From an uncultured Ruminococcus sp. (GTDB lineage: Bacteria; Bacillota; Clostridia; Oscillospirales; Ruminococcaceae): 64,000 bases of DNA. Shown here in pieces: positions 12,397-51,474 of the stretch. The notes under the pieces were generated by a model. It was not told the DNA's origin and ran no database searches. It saw nothing but the letters and a program-made list of their open reading frames with translations. Positions within the stretch are counted from its first letter, which is position 1, and each line of letters starts with the position of its first letter. The stretch covers positions 49,748 through 113,747 of the forward strand of contig CADALT010000003.1 in assembly GCA_902788785.1 (NCBI GenBank), given 5' to 3'. Made by a program: the position numbers and the translations under genes.

Positions 12397-13425
12397 GTGC
12401 AGGTGGCTGAAATAGAAGTGGCGTGCCCTATGTGCGGCGACATAAACCCCGTGGACAGTGAATTGGATACAGCGGTATGCCGAAGCTGCGGTGCGGCATT
12501 CGCTGTGCCGAAAATGATGGACGAGCCGCCTGTATATGATGAAAGACCTGTGGTGGAATTCGATATACGCTCGGGGGTGCTGGAGGCTTACGGCGGCACG
12601 AGTCCCGTGGCGGTGGTGCCGCAGGGCGTGACAGCCATCGGCGGACAGGCTTTCAAGGGCTGTGAGGGTCTGCGCAAGGTCGTGCTGCCCGAAGGTGTCA
12701 CGGAGATACAGAGCTCGGGCGAGGGCAGATGGGGCGCATTTTTCGGCTGCCGCTCGCTGGAAACGGTGGAGCTGCCATCGACGCTTACGAGGATAGGCTC
12801 GAATGCGTTCAACAGCTGTGTGCAGCTGGCTAATATCGACCTGCCCGACAGTGTGACCATGATAGGTCCGGGGGCTTTCTGCGGCTGTACAGCGCTGGCT
12901 GCGGTGAAGCTTTCAAGGGGACTGCGTGAACTGGCAAACGATATTTTCCGCAGCTGCGCTTCGCTAACGGATATAAAACTGAACGGCAATATAAAGACCA
13001 TAGGCTCCTATGCTTTTGCGGACTGCTGTGAGCTAAGGGCGCTGACCATTCCGCCCGGGGTCAAGACCATAGGCAGCTTTGCATTTTCGGGCTGCACAGG
13101 GCTTACGGACATGGTACTGCCTGCGACGCTGGTATCCCTGGGGGCATCGGCTTTTTCGGAGTGCAGGAACCTGAGTGCGATAAACATTCCTGCGGCGGTG
13201 GAATTCGAGACAGACGGCTCGGGGGTGCGCACCTTTGCAGGGTGCAGCTCACTGAAAGATGTGAGCATAGGCAAGATCCCCGATAATTTTGCAGAGATAT
13301 TCGCTTCTACTCCGTGGCTGGAGATATATCTGCAAAAGCAGGGACGGTGCAGGCATTGCGGCGGAAATTTCAAGGGCGTGTTCAAAAAGGTCTGCGAGGT
13401 CTGCGGTCTGCCAAAGGATTATTAA
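12397..13425 (+). CDS. Cytoplasmic BspA-type leucine-rich-repeat protein with zinc ribbons
   Basis: A 342-residue protein with no signal peptide. A zinc ribbon at the N-terminus (CPMCGD...CRSCGA, residues 10-32) and another at the C-terminus (CRHCGG...CEVCG) flank about nine LRR_5 (Treponema/BspA-type) repeats between 60 and 310, with the pattern FxGCxxLxxIxLPxxxxxIG. Such repeats mediate protein contacts; BspA forms are usually surface proteins, so a cytoplasmic zinc-ribbon version is less usual. The start is GTG at 12397, immediately after the previous stop and behind GAGGAAGGCAGG. It closes the kinase operon. Confidence 0.8.
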   Translation: MQVAEIEVACPMCGDINPVDSELDTAVCRSCGAAFAVPKMMDEPPVYDERPVVEFDIRSGVLEAYGGTSPVAVVPQGVTAIGGQAFKGCEGLRKVVLPEGVTEIQSSGEGRWGAFFGCRSLETVELPSTLTRIGSNAFNSCVQLANIDLPDSVTMIGPGAFCGCTALAAVKLSRGLRELANDIFRSCASLTDIKLNGNIKTIGSYAFADCCELRALTIPPGVKTIGSFAFSGCTGLTDMVLPATLVSLGASAFSECRNLSAINIPAAVEFETDGSGVRTFAGCSSLKDVSIGKIPDNFAEIFASTPWLEIYLQKQGRCRHCGGNFKGVFKKVCEVCGLPKDY

Positions 13426-34611: not shown

Positions 34612-34640
34612 TTGAAAAAATCATACCGATATGATATAAT
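34612..34640 (+). promoter_or_regulatory. Promoter of the dockerin beta-propeller gene
   Basis: TTGAAA (34612-34617), 17-bp spacer, TGA-TATAAT (-10 at 34635-34640). Divergent from the SLOG operon promoter. Confidence 0.85.
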
Positions 34641-34711
34641 TATAAATGTTTATAAGGTATCATATCGCAAGTGATGCCGAAAAAATCAAATCAGAACGGA
34701 GAGATGTAAAA

Positions 34712-36652
34712 ATGAGAAGAAGACCTGCAAAGTTTTTGAGTGCCTGCTGTGCGGCAACGCTGGCAGTCAGCTCCCTTTCGATGGGGGCATCGGCAGAGAG
34801 AGCCGGATTTAATAAGCCCGAAGACGGCGTGATTTACTGGGCAAACAAGTTCGGCGGAGATAAGCTGGATGATTGGGGATTCCCATCGAACTACCCCGGC
34901 AATATCGGGATTGACGGGGAGAACAACGTTTATTTCTATGTTGAGAATGTTCTTTACAAGCTGGACGGCTATACCGGCAAGACTCTTGCACAGGGCAAGA
35001 TGGCAGGAACAGTCAGCTATTCCACAAAGGGCCCCGTTATCGCTGACGGCAAAGTTTTCGTAGCACTGGACGGCGGCAAGATACAGGCATTCGATGCTGA
35101 GACTCTGGAGTCTCTCTGGATATACACAAACAAGAACGGCGGCGGTGCGAACTGCGATATAATCTATAACGACGGCGCAGTATACACTGGCTTCTGGAAC
35201 GGTGATGAGGCTGATGCGGATTACGTTTGCGTTGATGTGACCACCGATGACGAAACAGCTACCGATGAGGAACACGCTGCAAGGTGGACCTACACCAATA
35301 AGGGCGGTTTCTATTGGACTGCACCTGCATTTGAGGACGGCATTGCTGTTTTCGGCACAGAGGACGGTGCAAAGCTTGGCGAAAAGGGCAGTGCGGCACT
35401 GGTAGCTGTCGATGAAAAGACAGGCGAGGTCAAGGACACCACTGCTATGGCTGATGATGACGGCGATATACGCAGCAAGATAGTATATGATAACGGCAGA
35501 TTTTTCTATACCTCATCGAACGGTGTTGTGGCTATTTCCGAGAAAGAAGATGGCAGCATCATAAAGCGTGGTTCATATCTGGATCTCAGCGAGATACTGG
35601 CTAAAAAGGGCTATGAGGGTCTTAACTGCACATCGACACCCATCGTTTGCGGCAATAGAGTTTATGTGGCAATGAAGGGCGTAGGCTTCAACGGCTTCGG
35701 CGGCGCAGGCATAGCTGTGCTCGATCTTTCGGTAACAGAGCCTGCTGACAATATCCCTGCGCACGGTCATCTTGAGCTGGCATATTATGTCGAAACTACA
35801 GGCAATTGCCAGGCTGACGGTATCTTCATGGGTGTTGATGATGAAGGATACAACGTTATATATTACGTTGAGAACAATGCTGAAGGCAGCATACGTGTAC
35901 TGAGAGACAAGGCAGGCATGACAGGACCTCTCAAGACTGTTGATGAGGTAGAGACTGTTTATGATGCAAACTATAAGCCTGTAAGTACGAAAAAACATCA
36001 GTGCCTGCCTGCTGTATTTAAGTTTGGCGACACCTACAAGCAGTACTGTGCAACTTCTCCTCAGTATGACAAGGAGTCGGGCATCATATACCTGAGAAAT
36101 GACTCCTGCCATATCATGGCTATCGGCGCTAAGCCCAATGTAGACTTCTACAGTGACAGCCTGATACATCAGGGCAAGAACAAGACACTGGTCGTAAAGA
36201 ACGGTCAGAAGATTGGCGAGATCAACTATGAGGTGGCAGTTGATGGCGGCATCACAGGTGTTACCGATGGAGAAGACCTGGTATTCAGCATTGACGAGTT
36301 CACAACAGCTGATGAGATGCTGACAGTTTCTCATAAGTTCTTCCCCGTGGCTGACGGCACAGGCAGTGATGTGACAAGCGCACTGGCATCAGAAGATATA
36401 GCTCTGCTGGTGACAGAGACCGATGACCAGTACAAGAGAGCCCTTGCAGACAGGGGCGACGTTGACGGCAGCGGCGTGGTAGATGTTTCGGATATCGCTA
36501 AGGTGGCTGCACATATCAAGGGCGTGAAAGCTATCGACAAGTACAGCCTGAATGCGGCAGATGTCAACAACGACGGCGATGTTAATGTTACGGATATCGC
36601 TTTGCAGGCAGCACATATCAAGGGCATCAAGGCTATTGATACACCTAAGTAA
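34712..36652 (+). CDS. Secreted PQQ-like beta-propeller protein with C-terminal dockerin
   Basis: A 646-residue exported protein. Signal peptide 1-28 (cut after ASA). A beta-propeller (about 35-500) has repeated blades such as NIGIDGENNVYFYVENVLYKLD and GPVIADGKVFVALDGGKIQAFDAETL, of the PQQ/pyrrolo-quinoline type but without enzyme signature. A C-terminal dockerin (about 582-645) has two calcium loops, DVDGSGVVDVSD and DVNNDGDVNVTD, each followed by a helix with AAHIKGVKAID or AAHIKGIKAID. Dockerins bind cohesins, so the protein probably assembles on a cellulosome-like surface scaffold; no cohesin gene lies in the window. ATG 34712 follows GGAGAG and starts the signal peptide. A hairpin separates it from the DUF4430/ECF cluster. 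Confidence 0.85.
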   Translation: MRRRPAKFLSACCAATLAVSSLSMGASAERAGFNKPEDGVIYWANKFGGDKLDDWGFPSNYPGNIGIDGENNVYFYVENVLYKLDGYTGKTLAQGKMAGTVSYSTKGPVIADGKVFVALDGGKIQAFDAETLESLWIYTNKNGGGANCDIIYNDGAVYTGFWNGDEADADYVCVDVTTDDETATDEEHAARWTYTNKGGFYWTAPAFEDGIAVFGTEDGAKLGEKGSAALVAVDEKTGEVKDTTAMADDDGDIRSKIVYDNGRFFYTSSNGVVAISEKEDGSIIKRGSYLDLSEILAKKGYEGLNCTSTPIVCGNRVYVAMKGVGFNGFGGAGIAVLDLSVTEPADNIPAHGHLELAYYVETTGNCQADGIFMGVDDEGYNVIYYVENNAEGSIRVLRDKAGMTGPLKTVDEVETVYDANYKPVSTKKHQCLPAVFKFGDTYKQYCATSPQYDKESGIIYLRNDSCHIMAIGAKPNVDFYSDSLIHQGKNKTLVVKNGQKIGEINYEVAVDGGITGVTDGEDLVFSIDEFTTADEMLTVSHKFFPVADGTGSDVTSALASEDIALLVTETDDQYKRALADRGDVDGSGVVDVSDIAKVAAHIKGVKAIDKYSLNAADVNNDGDVNVTDIALQAAHIKGIKAIDTPK

Positions 36653-36682
36653 GCAAAGGTACATTTTAATATGATAACTAAG

Positions 36683-36713
36683 GGCAGAGTGGCCGTTGAG
36701 CCATTCTGCCTTT
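36683..36713 (+). terminator. Hairpin after the dockerin gene (weak terminator or attenuator)
   Basis: GGCAGAGTGGC (36683-36693) pairs with GCCATTCTGCC (36700-36710, one G-U) and is followed by only three T. Read-through into the next gene is plausible. Confidence 0.6.
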
Positions 36714-36749
36714 AGGTGTAGTATAGGCACATCTTCGGAGGGTTGGATC

Positions 36750-38666
36750 ATGGCGGACAAGGGCAGGCTACAGACCGTTCTGGCGGCTGCGGCTGCCGCA
36801 GTTATATGCGGCGGTGCGGCTTTGTTCGGCGTGGGCTTTTATCGTCATGCCCCGAGGGAGATACCATCTGCCGAGATAGTTCACAGGCAGGCGCAGCTGC
36901 CGGAAGTTACGATGCAGGGCGGAAAAGCGGAGGATAAAAAGGAAGAATACAGCAGCTCTTCCGACAGCAGTCGTGAGGACAGCAGACCCGATGATAGCGT
37001 GCAGGCTGATGTGCAGACCGTGAGCGAGACAAGCTCATCTTATGCCGAAAAGCCCGACAGGGAAGTGCGCACCGTCACATGGGAATATGAGGATGAGCAA
37101 ACGCCTTCGCCCGAGATAGTTACTGCCCCTGCCGATGCGGATACGCCCGTAAAGACCGTGGAGGACGGCACTAAGGCGGACAGAGAGTATTTCACGACCT
37201 CCATAAGGGACGGCGAAAAGGTGGAGGACAGCACCTATTTCTTCACGGTGACACATCTTGTGCCCGAATTGGAAGTCGTGCGGTGCGATGTGGAACTTGA
37301 CGGCGCTGTGCTTACGGGCGATGCAGGCAGGCTCGAACTTAAAGAGGGCGAGAACATGGTGCGTGTCAGCTGTACCTATAAGGACAGCAAGGGCAGGGTG
37401 TACAGGGCTTTCCGTGATTATACCCTGATACTGGAAAGTCCGCAGGCAGCCATATTTACAGACCTTACGGACTGCACGGTGTATTCCGATGCTTTCACAT
37501 TCTATGCCGAATGTGATGAGGGGCTGGAAGTAAGGCTGAACGGTGTGGTCGTTGAGGGCGGCAGGGATTACAAAGTCACCCTTGGCGAGGGCGAGAATAT
37601 GATAAGGCTCAGTTCGGGAAAGAACGAGCTGAATTTCTCCGTGACCTATATACCTATTAAAGCGTTGGATATAGTCACTGACCTGACGGACTGTGCGGTA
37701 TACGGCGAAACTCTGGGATTTGGCGCACAGGCAGTGGGCGGAAAAGCGCCTAAGCTGATGGTGCAGGTCAACGGTGTTGCGGTAAAGGGCAGCGGCGGAG
37801 CATATACTGCGGTGCTGAATGAGGGCGAAAACTTGATAAGGCTGCTGGCAAAGGACGGCACGGACAGCATCGAGCGCAGTTTCAGGGTGACAAGGCTGCC
37901 CGAATATGATGAAGCTTTGCAGCCGTATATCGAAAGCATCAGTCTTACAGATAATATGACCGTAAAGGGCAGCACTTATACCCTGACCCTGACAGCTGCC
38001 GACCATAACGGTGAGCGTATATACTCGGGCGGCATCGAACTAAGCTGCGGCGGCGAGATATTCAGCCGAAGCTGGGAAGATGTGATGTGTACGGGCTACC
38101 TGCTGCATCTGCATCAGGGCGAGAACAGCATATGCATCAAGCTGACCGACCACGAGGGCAGGCAGAGCGAGTTCTGGTATACGCTGTTCAGCGAGGGCGC
38201 ACAGCAAGGCGAAGAAACAGGCAGGATAGCCATAAGCTGTCGGGCTGATGTGGTGGGGCTGGGCTTGCTGTGTGAGGACGCAGATTACCCCGTGCTTGAG
38301 GGCGAGAGCGGCTTTGATACGGTGGAGAGATTTTTGAATGAGCACGGCTATGAGGTGCAGTACAAGGGCGGCGGAAGCAGCAGATATCTGTGCAGGATAT
38401 CTGCGCAGGGCGGCTTTGCGTCGGCATACCTTACCGACGAAGCGAGTGCATATCTTGAAAATTCGGGCATAGCTGTGCGCAATGACGGCGACCCCGATTC
38501 GCTGGGAGAATTCGATTACACCTCGGGCTCGGGGTGGATATATTCACGAAACGGCAAGAAGCCCTCATATGCCATGTCTTCGGCGGTGTTCGATGACGGC
38601 GATATTGTGGAGCTCATGTTCTCGCTGGATCTTGGAAATGATATAAGGGGAGGAGCAGATGAATAG
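36750..38666 (+). CDS. Membrane-anchored protein with Ig-like repeats and a DUF4430 (transcobalamin-like) domain
   Basis: A 638-residue protein with an N-terminal membrane helix (about 8-30), an acidic Ser-rich linker (60-130), and four beta-sandwich repeats marked by EGENMVRV, EGENMIRL, EGENLIRL and QGENSICI. Two of these repeats open with TDLTDCTVY or TDLTDCAVY. The last 120 residues form a DUF4430 domain: ESGFDTVERFLNEHGYEV and SGWIYSRNGKKPSYA. DUF4430 is the beta-domain of intrinsic factor/transcobalamin. The ATG at 36750 follows GGAGGG. It overlaps the next gene by 8 bases and begins the nine-gene cluster. It may display a ligand-binding domain away from the membrane. Confidence 0.8.
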   Translation: MADKGRLQTVLAAAAAAVICGGAALFGVGFYRHAPREIPSAEIVHRQAQLPEVTMQGGKAEDKKEEYSSSSDSSREDSRPDDSVQADVQTVSETSSSYAEKPDREVRTVTWEYEDEQTPSPEIVTAPADADTPVKTVEDGTKADREYFTTSIRDGEKVEDSTYFFTVTHLVPELEVVRCDVELDGAVLTGDAGRLELKEGENMVRVSCTYKDSKGRVYRAFRDYTLILESPQAAIFTDLTDCTVYSDAFTFYAECDEGLEVRLNGVVVEGGRDYKVTLGEGENMIRLSSGKNELNFSVTYIPIKALDIVTDLTDCAVYGETLGFGAQAVGGKAPKLMVQVNGVAVKGSGGAYTAVLNEGENLIRLLAKDGTDSIERSFRVTRLPEYDEALQPYIESISLTDNMTVKGSTYTLTLTAADHNGERIYSGGIELSCGGEIFSRSWEDVMCTGYLLHLHQGENSICIKLTDHEGRQSEFWYTLFSEGAQQGEETGRIAISCRADVVGLGLLCEDADYPVLEGESGFDTVERFLNEHGYEVQYKGGGSSRYLCRISAQGGFASAYLTDEASAYLENSGIAVRNDGDPDSLGEFDYTSGSGWIYSRNGKKPSYAMSSAVFDDGDIVELMFSLDLGNDIRGGADE

Positions 38667-39840
38667 GTGTACAGCGTTGTTCTGTGCGGTGGTTATGGCG
38701 GTATCGCCCATAGGTGTACGTGCCGAAAAGCAGGACAAGAACACGGGATATGCCCGTGGTATCGTGGCATTCGAGAAAAAGCACAACGGCATTAAGGACA
38801 GCAGCAGTCTGCTCTCGGGAGATATAGCCAAAGATGCAGGTACGGACAGTTCGGACTGGCTGGCGATAGCTGCGCTGCGCTACGGGCTGGAGGACAGCAC
38901 GGGCGAATACTTTAAAGCGTGGGAGACCTACATCGTCAATTCATATGCGGAAAATGACGGGCTCGATGAGGTAAAAGCTACAGAATGGCACAGGGCGGTG
39001 CTGACTTCTCTTGCACTGGGCTTTGACCCGACAGATATACAGGGCATCGACCTGCTGGCGGACGGAACTTATGAACGTGATGAGAAGCATCCGCTGGACG
39101 AACAGGGGCTCAACGGCGAGATCTGGGCTTTGATAGCGCTGGACAGCTGCGACTGGAAGATACCCGGTGATGCAAAACTCAGCCGTGCAGAGCTTGTGAA
39201 TGACATTATCTCGGCACAGCACGAGGACGGCGGATTTTCGCTGGACGGTACAGTGCAGGAGAGCGACCCCGATATTACGGCGATGGCGGTGCAGGCGCTG
39301 GCACCGTACCGTGGCTGCAGGGAAGTTTCGGAGGCTGCGGAGAAGGCGCTTGATGAACTGGCGGCACAGCGTGGCAGCTTATCTTCCTGCGAGTCAGTGG
39401 CACAGTGTGTGTGCGCTTTGTGCTGTATGGGTATCGACCCCGAGAAAGATGAACGCTTTGCGGGCATCACTGAGGAGCTTTATTCTTATGCCTGCGATGA
39501 CGGTGGATTTGCCCATGAAAAGGGCGGCGCAAGCAGTGAGGTGGCTTCGGCACAGACTTTGATAGCTTTGTGCAGCCTTGACAGGCTTGAAAAAGGCGAA
39601 CGCCCTATTTATGATTTTATCCCCGAAAGACCTGCACCCTTGCAGGAGGGCACTCTGGCAGAGGTGACAGCAGCGAAGGACCTGAACACCGAATGCCCTA
39701 TAAAAGATGCAGACCCCATGACCCTCGAAAAAGGCATGAGCCCCGTGAAGATGATGGTCACAGGTATAACTGTGGCTGTGGTCGCAGCGGCATTCGTGGC
39801 AGGGGGAATGTTCCGCAAAAGAAAGGAAATTAAGAAATGA
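38659..39840 (+). CDS. Membrane-anchored alpha/alpha-barrel (prenyltransferase-repeat) protein
   Basis: A 393-residue protein: signal peptide 1-22, an all-helical domain (about 30-315) with terpene-cyclase/prenyltransferase-type repeats (SSDWLAIAALRYGL, HEDGGFSL, DPDITAMAVQALAPYR, DDGGFAHE, SEVASAQTLIAL), and a C-terminal membrane helix (about 362-384) with a KKR/K-rich end. The repeats resemble the alpha-barrel of intrinsic factor/transcobalamin as much as true cyclases, and the aspartate-rich cyclase motif is absent, so I favour ligand binding over catalysis. It is flanked by two DUF4430 genes and its stop overlaps the MoxR start (ATGA). Confidence 0.8.
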   Translation: MNRCTALFCAVVMAVSPIGVRAEKQDKNTGYARGIVAFEKKHNGIKDSSSLLSGDIAKDAGTDSSDWLAIAALRYGLEDSTGEYFKAWETYIVNSYAENDGLDEVKATEWHRAVLTSLALGFDPTDIQGIDLLADGTYERDEKHPLDEQGLNGEIWALIALDSCDWKIPGDAKLSRAELVNDIISAQHEDGGFSLDGTVQESDPDITAMAVQALAPYRGCREVSEAAEKALDELAAQRGSLSSCESVAQCVCALCCMGIDPEKDERFAGITEELYSYACDDGGFAHEKGGASSEVASAQTLIALCSLDRLEKGERPIYDFIPERPAPLQEGTLAEVTAAKDLNTECPIKDADPMTLEKGMSPVKMMVTGITVAVVAAAFVAGGMFRKRKEIKK

Positions 39841-40778
39841 ATGCTATCCCGTCAAAGATAAAAGAACAGCTGACTAAGGTCATAATAGGCAAGGACGAGC
39901 TCATCGGCATGACTCTTGCCGCCATATTTGCAGGCGGCCATGTGCTGCTGGAGGATGTACCCGGTACGGGCAAGACTACGCTGGCGCTTGGCATATCAAG
40001 GTCGCTGGGGCTGGATTTCAGGAGGATACAGCTCACTCCCGATACGGTGGCATCGGATATAACAGGGTATTCCGCCTTTGATTCGGGCAAGCAGGAGTTT
40101 ATCTATCACCCCGGAGCTGCCATGACAAATCTGCTGCTGGCAGATGAACTTAACCGTACCTCGGGCAAGACTCAGGCGGCGCTGCTTGAAGCTATGGAGG
40201 AGGGCAGGATGACAGTTGACGGCATCACCTACGACCTGCCGAGACCTTTCAATGTGATAGCTACGCAGAACCCATCGGGCACCGCAGGAACTTCTGCCAT
40301 ACCTTTGTCACAGCTGGACAGGTTCATGGTAAGACTGCGTGCGGGAAGTCCCGACAGGGCGGCGCTCAAACGCATACTTTCGGACAGGAGCACAGGCGAC
40401 CCTCTTGACAGCGTGGAATGTGTATGTACCGCTGAACAGCTGAGTGAGATAGTCAAGGAGTGCAGTCTTGTAAAAGTCAGCGGAGAGATATATGATTATG
40501 TGTGCGACCTGGTTCAGGCGGCGCAGGACGATGAGCGAATAGACGGCGGCATCTCCCCGAGAGGTGCGCTGGCGCTATGCAGGCTGGCGAAGGCTGTGGC
40601 TTATCTTGCGGACAGGGATTACGTAGTGCCAATGGATATAAGGAGCTGCTTTGAACCTGTGTGCGCTCACAGGATAGTCCTGACCCGTGAAACGAGAGCA
40701 TCGGGAAAAAGTGCGGAGGATATACTTCACGAGATCGTGGAAAAAGTGCCGTGCCCCGAGAATGGAGGTAAAAAATGA
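39837..40778 (+). CDS. MoxR-family AAA+ ATPase
   Basis: A 313-residue chaperone-like ATPase. Walker A EDVPGTGKTT (near 38-47), Walker B LLLADELNRT (near 99), sensor 1 ATQNPSGTAGTSAIPLSQLDRF (near 141-162), and the C-terminal lid with ISPRGALAL. MoxR proteins act with a DUF58/VWA partner to mature protein complexes; that partner follows with a 4-base overlap. No VWA gene is present. Confidence 0.93.
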   Translation: MNAIPSKIKEQLTKVIIGKDELIGMTLAAIFAGGHVLLEDVPGTGKTTLALGISRSLGLDFRRIQLTPDTVASDITGYSAFDSGKQEFIYHPGAAMTNLLLADELNRTSGKTQAALLEAMEEGRMTVDGITYDLPRPFNVIATQNPSGTAGTSAIPLSQLDRFMVRLRAGSPDRAALKRILSDRSTGDPLDSVECVCTAEQLSEIVKECSLVKVSGEIYDYVCDLVQAAQDDERIDGGISPRGALALCRLAKAVAYLADRDYVVPMDIRSCFEPVCAHRIVLTRETRASGKSAEDILHEIVEKVPCPENGGKK

Positions 40779-41698
40779 GAAGAGCAGTTTTTGCTGTACT
40801 CCTGGCGGCAGCGGCGGTGCTGTGGATATTTTCGCCTGTGGGAGGGTATGTGTTCTGTGCACTGCTTGGTGCAGCGATAATTTCGGCGGCAGAGAATTTC
40901 ATTGTCAGCTACAGATGCCTTGTTAGTATCGAGAAGACCATATTACATAAAGGCGAAGCGCCCGTGCTTGTATTTTCGGGGAATAAGCGCCTGCGTGGTG
41001 AGGTCTGCGTGGAGAACCGGGTGACAGGAGATATACAGCGTATCAATGCGGATATCCTCAAAAACAGGGAGCTTGTACTGCCCGAGCAGGAACACTGCGG
41101 CACACTGCTCATAAGATTTTTTACTTTCAGGAGATACGATCTGCTGGGGCTGACATCAAGGACGGTGGTGTGCTATGCCGAGGGTGAGCCTGTTACCGTT
41201 ATGCCCGATACCGAGAGCAGTGCGCTTTCGGAATTATTGGAAGACTCTTTCGGTGAACAGGAGCCTGACGGTGCGGCGGAATATCGCCCGGGAGATCAGC
41301 TGCGCCACGTGAATTTCAAGCTGACACACCGTTTCGGGAAAATATACATCACAAGATATGTGCCCGAAAAGGGCGGCGAGCTGTGGCTTTATGTAGAATA
41401 CGGTCATGGAGAGAATGCCGAAAAAGCGGCAGAGGATATGTGCGCTCTGATGACGGCGCTTTCCGCAAAGGGCATAAGTTTCGGGGCGGCATTCATGATG
41501 GACGAGATAAAGCTTTATCCGAATGCGGATTGTGATGAGATGATAATGGAGCTGATGAGGTATCCGCTGTATCACGAACAGGATAACAGCAGGCTTGCGG
41601 AGTTCCTCGGTAAGATAGCCGAAGATTCGCAGGTCATAGCGTTCACACCCGAGAAAACAGCGCAGGATGACAGGGTAACTATAATAACGTGTAATTAA
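40775..41698 (+). CDS. DUF58 domain protein
   Basis: A 307-residue protein with two N-terminal membrane helices (about 3-45) and a C-terminal DUF58 domain whose signature YRPGDQLRHVNFKLTHRFGKIY lies near 170. It is the usual partner of MoxR and precedes a TgpA-like gene, the standard MoxR-DUF58-transglutaminase trio. The trio is inserted between the alpha-barrel and the second DUF4430 gene. Confidence 0.88.
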   Translation: MRRAVFAVLLAAAAVLWIFSPVGGYVFCALLGAAIISAAENFIVSYRCLVSIEKTILHKGEAPVLVFSGNKRLRGEVCVENRVTGDIQRINADILKNRELVLPEQEHCGTLLIRFFTFRRYDLLGLTSRTVVCYAEGEPVTVMPDTESSALSELLEDSFGEQEPDGAAEYRPGDQLRHVNFKLTHRFGKIYITRYVPEKGGELWLYVEYGHGENAEKAAEDMCALMTALSAKGISFGAAFMMDEIKLYPNADCDEMIMELMRYPLYHEQDNSRLAEFLGKIAEDSQVIAFTPEKTAQDDRVTIITCN

Positions 41699-41707
41699 GG
41701 AGAAACT

Positions 41708-43555
41708 ATGGAAAAGGGTCATAAGGACGGCTTTGGCGCACTGGCTTTCGGGCTTGCGGCAGGGCTGCTCATATTCATGATTTGGGGAGAGCTGTCGGCT
41801 GTACCGATGGCTTTTGCTTTGTGTACCCTGACAGCCTTTATCTGCGGACGTTTTGGCAGATGGTGGGGTTTCGTGCCTGCGGCTGTGGGCGCAGCGGCAG
41901 CTTTGCTAATGCAAGAAGAATTCATCGCAGAATGTTCTTTTGCCGCCGATGAGACAGCCTATCTGCTGGCATACAGGACGAAGGAGCTTTACCGCCCTTT
42001 TGAGGGTGCGGCAGATTCGTCACCGCTCATCATGCTGATAGCCGTGGGGATCTTTTGCGTAGTGTATTCGGCTGTGGGCATCAGAGGTTTTGCGGTGTTT
42101 GCGGCATTGCTCTCGGCGGCATGGGGAGCGCTCACGGGCGGCAGCAGTACGGCGGTGTGCCTTGCTGTGGGGCTGAGCGTGGGTATTCTCTGCTTTGGTG
42201 TACGGGACAAAAGATCGGCGGTGCTGGTGCTGTGTACGGCTGTAATGGCGCTGCCTGCGGCTTTTATCAGGCTGCCCGAGATACACCTTGACGGTGAGGT
42301 AACAGCATCGGGCGGTCTGCCGCTGTATCTGGCACAGGAAACACAGCAGCCTTATATTTCAAAGGAGACATACGCACGATGCTCGGCTATATATGAGGCG
42401 TTGTATGAACATGGCTTTTATCCTCAGCAGCAGACCGCATATCTTCTTGAAGCCGCAGGAGAAACATTTGATGCGGACAAGGTCACGGTCAGCGGAGGTC
42501 TTGTGCCGCAGGGAGTATGTGGGGGCGAGCCTGATGAAATAAGCCTTGGCGGATTTAGGTCGGGAAATTTCACCGTGTACCGACAGCTGCCCGAAAATGT
42601 ATTCACTCTTCTGCCTGAACTTCAAGACGGTGATTACATCGACTGTGAGGGTCTGTACAGAGAGTGCGTGTACGCTTGTTACGGCAGTCTTACCGCTGAT
42701 GAAGCGCAGGAGATGGAACAGCGTTTCTCCATTGACGGCAGTCTGCCGCTTGATAAAAAGCTTGAAGCTGTAAAAGCGGCAGTGTCTTCCGAATACGGCA
42801 AGGGCAGTACAGATGAAGATGAGCTGACCGAGCTTACAGTCCGTGCAGCGAAAAGCTGCGGTATAGCTGCACGACAGGTCAGGGGAGTGTACTTTCCCGT
42901 TTTCCCCGAAAGCGGCAGAGCGAAGCTTTCCGACGGGATATACCGCAGCTGGGCGGAGGTATATATCGACGGCGCAGGCTGGGTAACGCTGGAAACTTCT
43001 CCCGAATACGAGGGCTATTCGCCCTTGCTGCCCGAAAGTGCCGAAAACGGCGATGAAACAAGCATCACAGAGCGTGAAGAAAAACTGATATATAAGGTAT
43101 CGCCCCCGAGGACGGCGGCGGAGATAATCCCCGAAAACGAGGAAAAAAAGCCCGACGGACATTTGCTTGCCTGCACCCTTGCGACAGCTGCGGCGGCTTT
43201 GGCGGCATTGGTCACAGCAGGCAGGATAAGGGCAGGCATAAGGCGGCATAAGCGGAGTTTATCCGTGGGTGCGGCGCATTTTCAGGGCAGAGAGCTGATG
43301 GCAAAAGCCGTGGGCGCAGGTGAGGTATCGCCCGAGAGATTTTACGAGCTTGTATCGGAGAAAATGGGAAGTGCGGCTGCGGAAAGCTTTGCGGCATCGG
43401 AGAAGATATATGAACGCATAAGGTTCTCGTCAAATGCAGATGAAAGTGCCGAAGATAGGGCTGCGGCACAGCATTTCTACGAAACGGCAAAGGGCTGTAT
43501 GAAGTCGCTGTCCGTGGGCGAGCGTCTGGCTATGTGGCTAAAAGGAAAATACTGA
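41708..43555 (+). CDS. TgpA-like membrane protein with an inactive transglutaminase domain
   Basis: A 615-residue protein: five to six membrane helices in the first 200 residues, an extracellular part (200-470) containing a transglutaminase-like core (about 345-440), a helix near 485-505 and a cytoplasmic tail with a DUF4129-like end. The core reads KSCGIAARQVRGVYF (near 381), YRSWAEVYIDGAGWVTLETSPEY (near 412). The usual HxW(A/v)Ev His is Arg, the final Asp is Glu, and no Cys stands about 15 residues before GIAAR. All three catalytic residues seem lost, so it probably works as a structural protein. ATG follows AAGGAGAAACT. Confidence 0.85.
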   Translation: MEKGHKDGFGALAFGLAAGLLIFMIWGELSAVPMAFALCTLTAFICGRFGRWWGFVPAAVGAAAALLMQEEFIAECSFAADETAYLLAYRTKELYRPFEGAADSSPLIMLIAVGIFCVVYSAVGIRGFAVFAALLSAAWGALTGGSSTAVCLAVGLSVGILCFGVRDKRSAVLVLCTAVMALPAAFIRLPEIHLDGEVTASGGLPLYLAQETQQPYISKETYARCSAIYEALYEHGFYPQQQTAYLLEAAGETFDADKVTVSGGLVPQGVCGGEPDEISLGGFRSGNFTVYRQLPENVFTLLPELQDGDYIDCEGLYRECVYACYGSLTADEAQEMEQRFSIDGSLPLDKKLEAVKAAVSSEYGKGSTDEDELTELTVRAAKSCGIAARQVRGVYFPVFPESGRAKLSDGIYRSWAEVYIDGAGWVTLETSPEYEGYSPLLPESAENGDETSITEREEKLIYKVSPPRTAAEIIPENEEKKPDGHLLACTLATAAAALAALVTAGRIRAGIRRHKRSLSVGAAHFQGRELMAKAVGAGEVSPERFYELVSEKMGSAAAESFAASEKIYERIRFSSNADESAEDRAAAQHFYETAKGCMKSLSVGERLAMWLKGKY

Positions 43556-43574
43556 TGAAGAGGAGAGTGGTAGT

Positions 43575-44036
43575 ATGAAGTTGAAAGACACAGCGCTGAT
43601 AGCGTGTGCGGCAGCTGTGCTTGGGATAACAGCGCTGAATGTGGATATAAAGACACCTGCGCAATACTACGCTCTCCACCCAACAGAAGTCACCGAGGAC
43701 GGCGCATTCATCACACTGAAGGTTGAAAATTCAGCCGAAGATGATGTGATACTTGAAGGCAGATATGCCCTGGCATCGGGCGAAAGCGTATTCGATGTGG
43801 CGAACCGTGTGCTGAACTATGAGGGCGTGCCCTTTGAATACAAGGGCGGAAGGAATGTTTATGTGCAAAGCATCGACGGCATTGATGAATTTGAATACGG
43901 GGCGCAGTCGGGGTGGCTGTATACCGTAAACGGCGAAATGCCCGAGGTCAGCTGTGCGCAGTATGAGCCTGTATCGGGGGACGAGATAGTTTTTCTTTAT
44001 GTGGACGAATTTTACAGCAAGGGGGTACAAGGATGA
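43575..44036 (+). CDS. Small membrane-anchored DUF4430 protein
   Basis: A 153-residue protein: N-terminal helix (5-25) and a DUF4430 domain (about 60-150). ESVFDVANRVLNYEGVPFEY and QSGWLYTVNGEMPEVSC are the family motifs; the SGWLYTVNG turn is strictly typical. It starts 19 bases after the TgpA-like gene with AAGAGGAGAG, and its stop overlaps the ecfT start (ATGA). Direct coupling to the transporter suggests it hands substrate to it. Confidence 0.85.
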   Translation: MKLKDTALIACAAAVLGITALNVDIKTPAQYYALHPTEVTEDGAFITLKVENSAEDDVILEGRYALASGESVFDVANRVLNYEGVPFEYKGGRNVYVQSIDGIDEFEYGAQSGWLYTVNGEMPEVSCAQYEPVSGDEIVFLYVDEFYSKGVQG

Positions 44037-44887
44037 GAACACTGCACCCCTTTTCAAGACTTGCATCGGTGGTCGGCGTGTTGATGGTGCTGATGTTCTG
44101 CCGTTCGCTTGCTGCGGCAGGTGTGGGCATGGTCTGCGGACTGGCGTGTATAGCCATGCAAAACGGCATGAGGTCTTGCTTGAAAGCGCTGGGTCTGACT
44201 TTGCCGCTCTGTGTGCTTTCAGCACTGGTCAATCCGCTGGTATCTCACCGTGGCATGACGGTCCTGCTGTTTGTGAACGACCGTGCATATACCCTTGAAG
44301 CTTTGCTTTTCGGGCTGGAACTCGGGCTGTCCCTGAGCGGTGCGGCACTGTGGTTCATGGTAATGAGGGCGGTGCTTGATGAGCGTGAGATGCTCTATCT
44401 TTTCGGACGGCTGTCACCGAAACTCGCTTTGACGGTCAGCATGACACTTGGGTTTATCCCGAGACTGCTGGCAAAGCACCGCCGTATCCTGTCGGCACAG
44501 CACGGGTCGGGGCTGATGAGGGATAACAGCATCAGCGGCAGAATGGAGAGCGCATCGGCGGTGTATCTTGCCTGCACCTCATGGGCGGCGGAAAATGCGG
44601 CAGCGGCGGCACAGTCAATGAACGCACGCTGTTACGGCATGGAGCGCCTGACTTATTCTGACAGGCGAAAGCTCAGAAAAGGCGATGTGGTATTTTTGTG
44701 CCTGTATTTTATCTTGGTGACAGCGATAGTATATTTCGCTTTAACGGGCGGCACGGACGGCTATTACCCCGTATATGAAATGAGCGGTACGGGGCTGACT
44801 GTATCGTGTACGGCGTGCTGTCTTATGCCTGTAATTTTCATCGGAAAGGAGAGAGCCGCATGGCTGTACTGCACTGCGAAGGGCTGA
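44033..44887 (+). CDS. ecfT: ECF transporter transmembrane subunit EcfT
   Basis: A 284-residue protein with five to six helices. Near residues 160-205 the two coupling helices show AQHGSG and, later, MNARCYGMERL, the latter matching the second Ala-Arg-Gly motif of EcfT (here ARCYG). It connects EcfS with the ATPases. Start overlaps the small DUF4430 gene and its end overlaps ecfA by 28 bases. Confidence 0.85.
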   Translation: MRTLHPFSRLASVVGVLMVLMFCRSLAAAGVGMVCGLACIAMQNGMRSCLKALGLTLPLCVLSALVNPLVSHRGMTVLLFVNDRAYTLEALLFGLELGLSLSGAALWFMVMRAVLDEREMLYLFGRLSPKLALTVSMTLGFIPRLLAKHRRILSAQHGSGLMRDNSISGRMESASAVYLACTSWAAENAAAAAQSMNARCYGMERLTYSDRRKLRKGDVVFLCLYFILVTAIVYFALTGGTDGYYPVYEMSGTGLTVSCTACCLMPVIFIGKERAAWLYCTAKG

Positions 44888-46443
44888 ATTTTTACTATAA
44901 TAAAGCTGATGAGCCTACCCTCAACGACGTTTCCTTTTCGGTGGACGAGGGCGAATTTGTTATGCTCATGGGAGCTTCGGGCTGTGGAAAAACTACGCTT
45001 CTTCGGCTGTTAAAGCCCGAGATAGCGCCGCTTGGCAAGCTTAGGGGCAAGATCGCTGTTTTTGGAAGATCACAGCAAAAGCATGAGCCGACCATCGGCT
45101 ATGTGCCGCAGGACCCCGAGAGCGGATCTGTCAGTGATACTGTACGGGGCGAGGTGTGCTTCGGGGCGGAAAACCTGGGGCTTTCGCCCGAACAGGTCAG
45201 CCGCAGAGTCGCTGAGACTGTCAGTTTTTTCGGCATCGGCAGACTCATGATGCGCAAGCTCAGTGAACTGTCGGGCGGCGAGAAACAGTTGGTCAGCCTG
45301 TGCTCGGTGATGGCGATGCGCCCCGAGATACTGCTGTTGGACGAACCGCTGAGCCGACTTGACCCATTGGCGGCGGCGAATTTTTCGGAGCTTCTGCGCC
45401 GTGTGAACCGAGAACTGGGCACGACGGTCATAATTGCCGAGCATTGCGCCGAACAGCTTTTTGCGGACTGCGATGGTATCATCTTCATGGAGAAGGGCAG
45501 GATAACAGAGAAGATGTCTCCCCGTGAAGCAGCAAAACAGCGCAGTTTTGCAAGCTTTATGCCTGCGGCGGCACAGGTGTTCACGCAGGACGAGTCTGTT
45601 CCTCTGACCGTCAGAGAGGGCAGAGCGGCACTTTTGGCGGCACCGCATCATGACCTTGAACGCAATGCATCTGCAACTTTAGGTGATGAGGTGCTTTGCT
45701 GCTCCGGGCTGAGATTTGCTTACGACCGCAGCGGTGCAGAGCAGGTCAGTGATGCGGATATTTCTCTGCACAGGGGCGAACTGCTGGCGCTCGCAGGTGC
45801 TAACGGCAGTGGCAAGACCACTCTGCTGCGCTGTTTATCGGGTGAACTGCGCCCCTTTGGCGGCAGTATAAAGCTTATGGGCAAATCATTGAAAAAGCGT
45901 GCGGCAGTGCTTGCGGTCCTGCCGCAGGATGCGCAGGATGTGTTCTTGCAGCCGACGGTGGGTGAGGATTACCGCTATGCACTAAAAGCCATGGGACGCT
46001 CCCCCGATGAGGCTGAAAAGATGCTGGAAAAGCTGGGTATAGCCCACCTTGAAAATATGCACCCCTATGACCTTAGCGGCGGTGAACTACAGCGCTGTGC
46101 TCTGGGACGGGTGCTGCTGTGCGAGCCTCGGGTGCTGCTGCTTGATGAACCCACAAAGGGTCTTGACCCCGAAAGCGAGGCTGAAATTGGCAGACTTCTG
46201 CGGCAGCTTTGTGCCGAGGGCGTGGCTTGTCTTGCCGTGACGCACAGCCTGAATTTCGCAGCGAATTATGCCGATACCTGCGGTATATTCTGCGGCGGAA
46301 GAGCGCAGAGCGTATCACCTGCGGCAGAATTTTTCGCCGATGCAGGCTTCTACACCACGGAATCGGGCAGGATAGCACGGGGTATCTCGAAAAACGTATA
46401 TACCGTGGAACAGCTGCGCCTGGCGGCAGGGAGGACGATATGA
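44860..46443 (+). CDS. ecfA: Fused EcfA1-EcfA2 ATPase of an ECF transporter
   Basis: A 527-residue protein with two complete ABC domains. First (1-235): Walker A GASGCGKTT (near 38), signature LSGGEKQ (near 137), Walker B LLLDEPLSRLDP. Second (285-520): Walker A GANGSGKTT (near 314), signature LSGGELQ (near 405), Walker B LLLDEPTKGLDP. In many Firmicutes EcfA1 and EcfA2 are separate; here they are one chain. The ATG at 44860 follows GAAAGGAGAGAG. It would supply energy for the neighbouring EcfT/EcfS. Confidence 0.93.
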   Translation: MAVLHCEGLNFYYNKADEPTLNDVSFSVDEGEFVMLMGASGCGKTTLLRLLKPEIAPLGKLRGKIAVFGRSQQKHEPTIGYVPQDPESGSVSDTVRGEVCFGAENLGLSPEQVSRRVAETVSFFGIGRLMMRKLSELSGGEKQLVSLCSVMAMRPEILLLDEPLSRLDPLAAANFSELLRRVNRELGTTVIIAEHCAEQLFADCDGIIFMEKGRITEKMSPREAAKQRSFASFMPAAAQVFTQDESVPLTVREGRAALLAAPHHDLERNASATLGDEVLCCSGLRFAYDRSGAEQVSDADISLHRGELLALAGANGSGKTTLLRCLSGELRPFGGSIKLMGKSLKKRAAVLAVLPQDAQDVFLQPTVGEDYRYALKAMGRSPDEAEKMLEKLGIAHLENMHPYDLSGGELQRCALGRVLLCEPRVLLLDEPTKGLDPESEAEIGRLLRQLCAEGVACLAVTHSLNFAANYADTCGIFCGGRAQSVSPAAEFFADAGFYTTESGRIARGISKNVYTVEQLRLAAGRTI

Positions 46444-47132
46444 AAAAGTATGTACTTTGGGCGATATTCCTGCTCGGACTTGGGCTTACGGCGGCGGTCG
46501 GAGTATTGTTTTCCGACAGGGGGCTGAGCTGGGCGGCGACCTCTGCGGCGGTGATGGTGTGCGGAGGTTTTTTTGCACACTTCGAGCGCCGTGATGTGCC
46601 CTCGGGTGAGATAGCGCTTGCGGCGGTGATGACGGCGCTGGCGGTCACCGGCAGGGTGGTATTTGCAGCCTTGCCTGCATTTAAGCCCTGCGCTGCGGTC
46701 ATAATACTTGCAGGGATATACTTGGGCTCGGGGCAGGGCTTTATGATAGGTGCACTGACGGCGCTGGTCTCGAACTTTTTCTTTTCCCAGGGGATATGGA
46801 CACCTTTCCAGATGATAGTCTGGGGGCTTACGGGGCTGATCTCGGGGCTTTTGGGGAAGTATCTGAAAAAGAAAAAGCTGCTTTTGTGCCTGTACGGAAT
46901 GCTGGCAGGGCTGTGCTATTCGCTGTCCATGGATATGTGCAGTATGTTCTGGATGGACGGCAGCTTTGAGCCCGAACGTTTCATTGGGCTAACACTTACT
47001 TCAGCTTGGTTCACGGTTGGTTATATTTTTTCTAACTGCGTTTTCCTTCTCATTTTTGTACAACCTGCTGAAAGGATATTTTCGAGACTGCACGACAAAT
47101 ACGGCATTGGAAGCATATCTTCTGATGCATAA
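46440..47132 (+). CDS. ECF transporter substrate-binding subunit (EcfS)
   Basis: A 230-residue protein with six or more helices. The first 70 residues hold two extra helices, then the S-component core with TGRVVFAALPAFKP, GIYLGSGQGFMIGALTALVSNFFFSQGIWTPFQM and a WGLTGLISGLLG helix. This belongs to the group of S components found next to DUF4430 genes; its substrate is not fixed by sequence, and corrinoid is my leading guess. It starts on the ecfA stop (ATGA) and ends the cluster. A short hairpin CCATGT/ACATGG (47134-47153) follows. Confidence 0.85.
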   Translation: MKKYVLWAIFLLGLGLTAAVGVLFSDRGLSWAATSAAVMVCGGFFAHFERRDVPSGEIALAAVMTALAVTGRVVFAALPAFKPCAAVIILAGIYLGSGQGFMIGALTALVSNFFFSQGIWTPFQMIVWGLTGLISGLLGKYLKKKKLLLCLYGMLAGLCYSLSMDMCSMFWMDGSFEPERFIGLTLTSAWFTVGYIFSNCVFLLIFVQPAERIFSRLHDKYGIGSISSDA

Positions 47133-49698: not shown

Positions 49699-51474
49699 TC
49701 AGACTATTGCTTTTATGCCCTTTATGTGGGACGCTACCAGTGCTATATCCGTAACATTTATATAGCCGTCGCCGTTGACATCTCCCTTGTTGAAGCTTTC
49801 GTCCTCGCCGGATGTGGTATCCTGATCTGTGGTCTGGGTATCGTCGGGCTTTGATGTATCATCGGGCTTGCCGTCGCTCTTAGAGCTGCTGTTATCAGCC
49901 TTGGAACTGTCGTCCTTCTTGCTGTCGTTATTTGAGCTGCTGTTGTCAGCCTTGGAGCTGTCGTCCTTCTTGCCGTCGTTCTTTGACTCGGTACTGTCGG
50001 TCTTCGATGTAGTGCTGTCATCATTCTTATCTTCGTCAAGAGGAATGAATTCCAGCTCATTGTCCTTGGCGTACTTTTCGGCTGCGGTGTTCTTGTAGCC
50101 CTTTATGGCTGTTTTGACTTTATCTTCCTGACCGAACAGGCTGTAATATCCGATAGATCTCTCGCCTATATCCGTAACGCTCTTGGGGAGAGTTATCTCG
50201 GTGAGATTTGCGCAGTTGATGAATGCGTTTGCACCGATCTTTGTAACGCCGTCGGGCACGGTAATGGTCTTTGTGCCTGCCACGCCCATAAATGCACCAT
50301 CTCCGATGGCGGTAACAGCATTATCCTCCAGCTTATCGGGGATCATCACATCGCTGCCGTAGCCTGTAAACTTGACTATCTCTGCGCCGTCTTCGGTAAG
50401 CTTGTACTGATAATCACCTGCGATATAGACGAAGGTAAAGCCGTTATCCTTGGCGTAGGTCTCGGCAGCGCTGTCCTTATGACCGTAGATGGTGAAATTT
50501 TTGATCTTGACAGCGCCCATCTTCAGGGGTATCACGCTTGTTATGCCTTGCCTGTAGCCTAAGGCTTTATCGCCTATTTCCGTTACGCTCTGCGGTATGG
50601 TTATGTTCTGCATATTCGGGCAGGCATAAAAGCTTCTTTCGCCTATTTTTGTAAGAGTTTCGGGCAGTTTCACACTGCTGAGTTTTATATCTGTGTTTGC
50701 AGACTTTGTGCCGTCGAAAGCATTGTCAGCTATCTCTTTGACCTCGTCGCTGCTGAAATCATTGGCTATATTTAAGCTTTCGGCATTGCCGTTATATTTC
50801 ATTATGACCACGGATTTATCGGGGTTTGAACGGTACTCGTAGTCGCCGTGGACGTAGTTTAGGTATTCGTAATCAAATTCGTTGTCTTTTGCATAAGTCT
50901 CGCCTGGTGAATTCGGATAGCAGAATATCTTGAAATCGCTGACCTTAGGGTAAGTGACGGTTATGCCATGACCGCTTTTCTTCGGAGTAAGCTTTATTGT
51001 ATAACCGAAAGCCCTTGTGCCTATCTCTGTGCACTGGTCGGGTATCTTCACGGATTTAAGGCTGGGGCAGCTTAAAAAGGCTGAGTCACCTACCGATGAA
51101 AGAAATGTTGGCAAGGTCACGTTCTCCAGTGCGGAACAGCCGTTGAAAGCGTTCTCCATGATGTATCGTACACTTTCGGGTACGGTCACGCTTTTGATGT
51201 CGGTATTCGATTTGAAAGCCTCAACACCGATGATGGTGACCTTCTTGCCGTCTATGGTGTCGGGTATCGATACATCGGTATCTGTGCCCTTGTAGCCTCT
51301 GATGGTGATGCTGCCCGTTTCCTCAACAGTGTATTCAAATCCGCCGTATTCCTCCAACGGCGCAGCGCTTGCAGTTACCACGAACGGTGCGGCATCTATA
51401 CTGCCGATAACGCTGCCTGCTCCGAATACCATCATAAGAGCCATTACACTTGCCACAATCTTTTTGCTTCTCAT
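49699..51474 (-). CDS. Secreted BspA-type leucine-rich-repeat protein with half dockerin
   Basis: A 591-residue exported protein: signal peptide (about 1-38, ending TASA), LRR_5 repeats in three blocks (75-170, 240-310, 380-450), each closed by a tag like HGITV..YAKDNEF, then a low-complexity linker (480-560) built of Ser/Asp/Lys repeats (KADNSSS, KKDDSS), and a C-terminal segment with one calcium loop DVNGDGYINVTD and helix VASHIKGIKAIV. A complete dockerin has two such loops; this one has only the last, so cohesin binding is uncertain. Monocistronic, with consensus promoter and terminator. Confidence 0.85.
   Translation of the reverse strand: MRSKKIVASVMALMMVFGAGSVIGSIDAAPFVVTASAAPLEEYGGFEYTVEETGSITIRGYKGTDTDVSIPDTIDGKKVTIIGVEAFKSNTDIKSVTVPESVRYIMENAFNGCSALENVTLPTFLSSVGDSAFLSCPSLKSVKIPDQCTEIGTRAFGYTIKLTPKKSGHGITVTYPKVSDFKIFCYPNSPGETYAKDNEFDYEYLNYVHGDYEYRSNPDKSVVIMKYNGNAESLNIANDFSSDEVKEIADNAFDGTKSANTDIKLSSVKLPETLTKIGERSFYACPNMQNITIPQSVTEIGDKALGYRQGITSVIPLKMGAVKIKNFTIYGHKDSAAETYAKDNGFTFVYIAGDYQYKLTEDGAEIVKFTGYGSDVMIPDKLEDNAVTAIGDGAFMGVAGTKTITVPDGVTKIGANAFINCANLTEITLPKSVTDIGERSIGYYSLFGQEDKVKTAIKGYKNTAAEKYAKDNELEFIPLDEDKNDDSTTSKTDSTESKNDGKKDDSSKADNSSSNNDSKKDDSSKADNSSSKSDGKPDDTSKPDDTQTTDQDTTSGEDESFNKGDVNGDGYINVTDIALVASHIKGIKAIV

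Follow-up and report, generated by a model that had tools for sequence, protein, structure and literature searches.

The window analysed here is a 64,000-nucleotide stretch of contig CADALT010000003.1 from an uncultured Ruminococcus sp. (assembly GCA_902788785.1). Our subject is a run of plus-strand genes within it that joins an alpha/alpha-barrel protein and two DUF4430 proteins to an energy-coupling factor (ECF) transporter, a predicted system for corrinoid uptake (Table 1). The nine genes from the stalked DUF4430 gene to the EcfS gene meet at eight junctions, which comprise five overlaps of 4–8 base pairs (bp), one overlap of 28 bp and two gaps. The stalked DUF4430 and barrel genes overlap by 8 bp, and ATGA overlaps join the barrel gene to MoxR, MoxR to DUF58, DUF4430 to EcfT and EcfA to EcfS. 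The 28-bp overlap lies between EcfT and EcfA, with the EcfA start placed at 44860, and the transglutaminase-like gene is separated by 9 bp from the DUF58 gene and by 19 bp from the following DUF4430 gene. A sequence-only reading of this DNA had described nine consecutive, tightly coupled plus-strand genes with ATGA coupling to the ECF transporter. All nine are present, the measured junctions agree and both the DUF4430/EcfT and EcfA/EcfS junctions are of the ATGA type, but a tenth gene upstream had been missed. The domain content claimed for the barrel, the DUF4430 genes and the transporter is borne out by Pfam matches, some below cut-off, and the weak Pfam assignments are backed by homologues in related loci. 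The AAA_3, DUF58 and Transglut_core matches and both ABC stretches exceed their cut-offs, as does the DUF4430 match of 43575–44036.

The tenth gene encodes a beta-propeller protein with a C-terminal dockerin and most likely leads the operon. Its start codon is preceded by a purine-rich ribosome-binding stretch, and it is followed by a gap of 97 bp in which no terminator-like site is listed. Another genome of the same genus (G158, locus L035) keeps all ten genes in the same order, dockerin included, and the arrangement is therefore not due to chance. The operon region (36001–46000 of the window) has a guanine plus cytosine fraction of 0.53–0.56 versus 0.45–0.52 elsewhere in the window, a difference that could reflect transfer or codon bias.

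Table 1. Positions of the ten genes and of a promoter-like site in the window, with the basis of each assignment (E, expectation value).
Feature	Positions	Strand	Basis
Promoter-like site, TTGAAA-17-TATAAT	34612..34640	+	Consensus scan, 11/12 matches, TG preceding the second hexamer; consensus match only
Secreted protein: PQQ-type beta-propeller followed by a C-terminal type I dockerin	34712..36652	+	PQQ_2 E 3.2e-9, Dockerin_1 E 1e-8 (Pfam)
Stalked DUF4430 protein: N-terminal membrane helix, immunoglobulin/cadherin-like stalk, C-terminal DUF4430-type (beta-grasp) domain	36750..38666	+	
Alpha/alpha-barrel (toroid), signal peptide-like start, C-terminal membrane helix ending RKRKEIKK	38659..39840	+	
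MoxR-family AAA ATPase	39837..40778	+	AAA_3 E 6.5e-48, AAA_lid_2 E 4e-22 (Pfam)
DUF58 protein, two N-terminal membrane helices	40775..41698	+	PF01882 E 4.7e-6; hydropathy
Transglutaminase-like membrane protein, catalytic Cys-His-Asp residues not retained	41708..43555	+	Transglut_core E 8.7e-8; alignments
DUF4430 protein (beta-grasp, transcobalamin C-domain type), N-terminal membrane helix	43575..44036	+	PF14478 E 1.3e-17
EcfT, transmembrane coupling component	44033..44887	+	CbiQ E 0.002, below cut-off; neighbour position in relatives
Fused EcfA-EcfA' ATPase	44860..46443	+	Two ABC_tran stretches, E 2.4e-56 (Pfam)
EcfS, CbrT type (corrinoid S component)	46440..47132	+	PDB sequence match 6fnp_A (CbrT)

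The S component and the barrel-DUF4430 pair

The operon contains EcfT and the two ATPase domains of an ECF transporter. EcfT scores 18.3 bits as CbiQ against a Pfam cut-off of 25, and its homologues adjoin EcfA and EcfS genes in related loci. The fused EcfA matches ECF_ATPase_1 across two stretches (E 9.2e-81), below the equivalog cut-off. The ligand is indicated by EcfS, which matches ECF-ribofla_trS and ECF_trnsprt in Pfam, both above cut-off. A search of PDB sequences with the single EcfS sequence found 6fnp_A at E 1.5e-7, and a profile of 17 relatives found the same chain at E 4.8e-20, followed by 4hzu_S at 1.8e-5 and by no further chain at E ≤ 1. According to the accessible text of its report, 6FNP is ECF-CbrT, the B12 transporter of Lactobacillus delbrueckii (PMC5997447). 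EcfS is thus nearer to CbrT than to any other S component of solved structure, and the CbrT-type profile matches one protein in the whole genome, the EcfS of this operon. The single match listed by NCBIfam is to the FolT family and is sub-threshold (23 vs 60 bits). The assignment of the S component to the CbrT type, and so of a corrinoid ligand to the system, is well supported by these sequence comparisons. The earlier proposal of a corrinoid ligand had been staked in part on the family of EcfS, which proved to be that of CbrT and not one with another known substrate.

The same parts recur at related loci. The barrel was searched for in 247 genomes of the family and found in 72, the present genome included; of the other 71 genomes with a barrel, 40 supplied stretches around it for comparison. 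EcfT and EcfA lie near the barrel in 27 of these 40 loci, EcfS in 26 and DUF4430 in 32. Outside this sample, plasmids of L. plantarum MF1298 (L161) and Latilactobacillus curvatus (L158) carry a DUF4430 gene and ECF sets whose S component is CbrT-like; one adds a gene annotated as fucose-binding lectin II, and the other an LPXTG protein that weakly matches the barrel.

The barrel protein falls just under the Pfam cut-off for Prenyltrans (26.3 vs 26.5 bits, E 6e-6). Hydropathy places membrane helices at its residues 4–22 and 363–381 and at residues 7–25 of the DUF4430 protein encoded beside EcfT. Other loci encode the two domains as a single chain: 11 of the 40 (one of them, in G065, from the same genus) have them in the intrinsic-factor order and 5 in the reverse order. 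Such natural single chains are genetic evidence in favour of the domain pairing that the sequence-only reading proposed. A hydropathy scan of 95 fused proteins, the majority from a search steered to fusions, predicted two membrane helices between the domains in 87, and the examples printed have a short basic loop between these helices. Both domains should therefore face the outside of the cell. The fused protein from G065 (L073) aligns over residues 22–398 with the window barrel (E 5e-22) and over residues 397–546 with the window DUF4430 protein (E 1e-17), and the window pair would correspond to an L073-like protein cut within the basic loop, between the two membrane helices. Because the two proteins match the two halves of L073, they probably form a split intrinsic-factor-like clamp beside the transporter. 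Across 123 barrel rows, 22 polar positions reach a conservation of 80% or more, and the window barrel keeps 16 of them, including D203, D205, T207, Q249, H286 and Q299.

A tree of 64 barrel rows, for which bootstrapping had not settled, included every fourth of the named loci, which are the best 80 of 567 from a separate search steered to fused proteins. In it the window and L035 barrels belong to a group with loose support (85/89) whose 14 rows include 13 unfused ones; the neighbouring clade holds 30 fused rows. Derivation of the window split from the fused clade was considered and dropped, since the tree puts the window and G158 outside that clade, with soft support. The genus itself holds both a fused (L073) and a split (window) pair. 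The near relatives L044 (G117), with separate barrel and DUF4430 genes, and L050 (G193), with a fused gene, differ in a way that suggests recent fusion or fission. At two further loci a small secreted-looking protein is encoded between the riboswitch and the fused barrel gene (L077, 8106–9038; L080, 8031–8993); the L077 protein has a sortase-like tail, and neither has a Pfam family above cut-off.

Riboswitch linkage and the identity of the ligand

Riboswitches were surveyed in 41 of the 72 barrel genomes, which hold 51 barrels and 51 cobalamin riboswitches of Rfam family RF00174. For this family and for RF01689 (AdoCbl-II), part of the candidates was scored in most genomes, so misses are possible. 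RF00174 is present in 33 of the 41 genomes, in 29 of these as one or two copies. It lies within 10 kilobases (kb) upstream of a barrel gene and on the same strand in 18 genomes, against 0.17 pairs expected if the riboswitches were strewn evenly, with genome sizes rounded and contig ends ignored, and in none of the 41 does it lie within 10 kb of a barrel in any other placement. RF01689, searched in 40 of the 41, adds G192 and G113, where it lies 1164 and 1289 bp upstream of the barrel. With both families combined, 20 of 41 genomes have a cobalamin-class riboswitch upstream of the barrel, and cobalamin riboswitch control is a frequent, non-obligatory feature of barrel loci. An nhmmer search with a profile of 16 linked riboswitches found same-strand riboswitch-like matches upstream of the barrel in 58 of the 80 named loci (E ≤ 0.01). 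Seventeen of these matches were run against Rfam, where 9 pass the gathering threshold (4 of 6 and 5 of 11) and 8 fail.

The genome itself points to a use for corrinoids. It encodes one PF02310 B12-binding protein, of the MetH type, and CbiC, the one ring-synthesis family searched, was not found in the assembly, which is about 91% complete. With MetH present and CbiC not found, the genome can use corrinoids and probably does not make them.

Several observations weigh against a corrinoid capture operon at this locus. No cobalamin riboswitch was found in the 64-kb window with all Rfam families, none of RF00174 in the whole genome (all 73 candidates scored), and none of RF01689 in the genome in a less complete search (86 of 267 candidates scored); five Rfam matches before the operon were rejected as far below gathering. 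The sequence-only reading had itself reported no cobalamin riboswitch at the operon, which holds for the window and the whole genome. Its suggestion to look in relatives' neighbourhoods is answered in two ways: the 20 genomes above do carry one upstream of the barrel, but the same-genus genomes G158 and G065 yielded no cobalamin-class riboswitch among the part of the candidates scored. In all, 21 of the 41 barrel genomes show none in the 10 kb that precede the barrel, and 13 of the 40 barrel loci, some on short contigs, have no EcfT and EcfA nearby. The window barrel differs at 6 of the 22 conserved polar positions (at 238, for instance, R replaces Q). Among 131 DUF4430 rows, 33 positions are conserved in 75% or more, and the DUF4430 protein of the window keeps 19 of these. 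A PduO-type adenosyltransferase, the one adenosyltransferase type searched, was not found in the genome. MetE is encoded alongside MetH, so B12 is helpful rather than demonstrably essential. Searches of PDB sequences with the barrel and fusion profiles found squalene cyclases and no intrinsic factor or transcobalamin, and the toroid is a fold with many uses.

A part of this evidence would fit a non-corrinoid ligand in this genus, such as another tetrapyrrole or a vitamin, to which the machinery would have been re-targeted after loss of the riboswitch. The failure to find cobalamin-class riboswitches in this genome, G158 and G065, the PduO-type enzyme that was not found, the presence of MetE, the sub-threshold FolT-family match of EcfS and the departure of the DUF4430 protein from 14 of 33 widely conserved positions all lean that way. 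This explanation is nevertheless improbable, as EcfS is closest to CbrT, the barrel retains most of its conserved polar positions and the genome has MetH with no CbiC found.

The searches of solved structures bear on a different alternative, in which the barrel is a terpene-cyclase-like enzyme and not a binder. The barrel profiles match squalene-hopene cyclases best, squalene cyclase and prenyltransferase are the toroid families matched by most members (among 25 listed of 105 matched families), and the copy from Vescimonas (NZ_AP023417.1) is annotated by NCBI as a terpene cyclase/mutase family protein. An enzyme is very hard to reconcile with a barrel that is predicted from hydropathy to be exported and membrane-anchored, that is fused in relatives to DUF4430 and adjoins a CbrT-type transporter, and that has a cobalamin riboswitch ahead of its gene in 18 of 41 genomes. 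The DUF4430 profile likewise found no intrinsic factor or transcobalamin chain among PDB sequences, and its five matches there (best E 0.49) were taken as chance.

The propeller, the stalk and the MoxR-DUF58-transglutaminase set

The remaining genes encode predicted surface proteins and a possible assembly set. The stalked DUF4430 protein has a membrane helix at residues 10–28 and matches Glucodextran_B (E 6.9e-9) and, below cut-off, Cadherin-like (E 9e-5); its C-terminal DUF4430 domain is also below cut-off (20.0 vs 23.8 bits, E 9.5e-4), and it has a counterpart in Vescimonas (E 3e-23). The Dockerin_1 match of the propeller protein is above cut-off (35.7 vs 22.9 bits). When the propeller region (34646–36652) was compared with PDB sequences at E ≤ 0.1, eight sequences were found, all matching the dockerin stretch, and no solved propeller. 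Counterparts of the propeller-dockerin protein occur in G158, in G222 and G154, and in Vescimonas fastidiosa (E 5e-73). The genome of the window has 63 dockerin matches and one borderline cohesin match.

The propeller, stalked DUF4430 protein, barrel and MoxR-DUF58-transglutaminase genes recur together in G222 (L039) and G154 (L040), which belong to another genus; the DUF58 match of L040 is below cut-off. The stretches show no ECF genes as far as fetched, and both stop at contig ends. In each of them a cobalamin riboswitch lies 106–108 bp before the propeller gene, which is the strongest evidence that both the propeller and the MoxR set belong to corrinoid biology. In Vescimonas fastidiosa, a human gut species, these genes are found again on plasmid pMM35_02, in a cluster of dockerin and cohesin genes, and the propeller protein encoded there likewise ends in a dockerin. 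Neither ECF genes nor an Rfam riboswitch were found in 42 kb of this plasmid, which weighs against a corrinoid role for the Vescimonas copy. The gene run at L159/L162 reads dockerin, cohesin, a protein with a sub-threshold cohesin, dockerin, hypothetical, DUF4430, barrel, MoxR, DUF58, transglutaminase and propeller-dockerin.

These second sets raise the question of whether one transcript encodes two machines. The ECF transporter and DUF4430 protein would import a corrinoid, and the propeller-dockerin protein, stalk, barrel and MoxR-DUF58-transglutaminase set would make up a surface complex of their own, which might be a device for cohesin/dockerin adhesion or for polysaccharides. This arrangement would account for the sets that stand without ECF genes in the fetched G222 and G154 stretches, and for the one inside the Vescimonas cluster, where no Rfam riboswitch was found. 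We consider it unlikely, although less so than a change of ligand, since the set-opening propeller gene in G222 and G154 follows a cobalamin riboswitch and the same barrel domain is elsewhere fused to DUF4430 ahead of EcfT.

The MoxR set is accessory and not part of the core, because MoxR is near the barrel in just 4 of the 40 loci. In G188 (L071) a gene for a fused barrel-DUF4430 protein is followed, about 460 bp further on, by MoxR, DUF58 (below cut-off) and transglutaminase genes. The transglutaminase-like protein varies at its catalytic residues, which we take to be Cys, His and Asp. Alignments show that the window and L035 proteins lack the Cys site and have Arg for His and Glu for Asp, the L039 and L159 (Vescimonas) proteins have Ser for Cys, retain His and have Glu for Asp, and the L071 protein keeps all three residues. 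The window protein is apparently non-catalytic, as judged from these alignments.

Away from the operon, the window encodes two BspA-type leucine-rich repeat proteins, at 12397–13425 and 49699–51474.

Proposed mechanism and relation to known systems

Taken as a whole, the operon very probably serves corrinoid capture and import by way of an extracellular two-domain clamp and a CbrT-type ECF transporter. The observed basis consists of the gene order, the domains, the kinship of EcfS with CbrT, the natural fusion bearing a membrane hairpin, the riboswitch linkage in relatives, and MetH without CbiC. The barrel and DUF4430 proteins, with one membrane helix each, would assemble into an extracellular clamp of the intrinsic factor/transcobalamin type, which would hold a cobamide or a cobamide precursor between its two domains and pass it to EcfS. 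EcfT and EcfA would then turn over the loaded EcfS with ATP, as is established for the Lactobacillus ECF-CbrT, and the imported cargo would feed the cobalamin-dependent methionine synthase. The stalked DUF4430 protein and the dockerin-bearing propeller may act as outer first-contact binders or tethers. The surface proteins may be assembled or displayed with the help of MoxR, DUF58 and the transglutaminase-like protein, which is the weakest step. A more specific version, which we put forward tentatively and regard as less likely than not, is a capture machine scaffolded by cohesin-dockerin contacts, in which the propeller and stalked protein catch the corrinoid at a distance from the cell, the split clamp hands it to CbrT and the MoxR-DUF58-degenerate transglutaminase set carries out assembly. 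If so, cellulosome docking parts serve vitamin capture.

The core of this system had been foreseen. Burroughs et al. 2007 (PMC1796856), in the part of the paper available to us, predicted B12 scavenging for toroid and beta-grasp proteins with CbiO/CbiQ in low-GC Gram-positives, and named bacterial toroid fusions, a second paralogous surface protein and transfer to animals. Because the parts and the role were predicted there, the core finding is a member of a predicted kind. The window shares with these transcobalamin-like SLBB proteins a secreted beta-grasp domain (exported, as judged by hydropathy), a toroid partner, a second SLBB paralogue and CbiO/CbiQ-like genes in the operon, and a Clostridium beta-propeller fusion is also mentioned in the same text. 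Beyond that account, as far as its accessible text goes, the window operon adds the S component assignment, the riboswitch linkage, the membrane-hairpin topology, the MoxR-DUF58-transglutaminase set and the dockerin. The CbrT assignment, the riboswitch statistics, and the hairpin topology with its split appear to be new relative to that text, as do three features of the capture module: a propeller gene preceded by a riboswitch, the link to dockerins and a degenerate transglutaminase. In the literature searched, outside of which lay preprints and most subscription papers, no bacterial toroid-DUF4430 protein was found to have been tested by experiment.

The transporter has its closest counterparts in ECF-CbrT of Lactobacillus delbrueckii (PMC5997447) and the predicted CbrUVT (PMC6593275), which, in the sections of those reports at hand, likewise comprise EcfT, EcfA, EcfA' and a homologous S component. 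The window system differs from ECF-CbrT in its dedicated operon, its fused EcfA-EcfA' and its surface capture proteins, whereas in L. delbrueckii, the same sections predict, a single ECF module serves CbrT and other S components alike. The animal proteins intrinsic factor, transcobalamin and haptocorrin likewise combine an alpha/alpha barrel with a DUF4430 beta-domain, and an excerpt of PMC4350170 places DUF4430 at the C-terminal end of TCN proteins. In the window the domains are on two chains, both membrane-anchored, and no special closeness of the barrel to its animal counterpart can be recognised from sequence.

The propeller invites comparison with BtuG of Bacteroides, a surface beta-propeller that is encoded alongside a B12 uptake system and can bind B12, according to the accessible part of PMC6143338. 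There BtuG is a lipoprotein partner of BtuB in a Gram-negative organism, whereas the window propeller carries a dockerin instead. The likeness is one of role alone, because the sequence of the window propeller matches none of the solved propellers. As far as these partly available sources indicate, the Bacteroides side of extracellular B12 capture (BtuG, BtuH) has been worked out in several papers, and capture by Gram-positive gut bacteria has apparently been little tested. If the proposed mechanism is true, the operon offers a compact, testable system together with living relatives of the possible source proteins of animal intrinsic factor, and a beta-propeller, a dockerin and a MoxR-DUF58-pseudotransglutaminase set join the known parts of corrinoid uptake.

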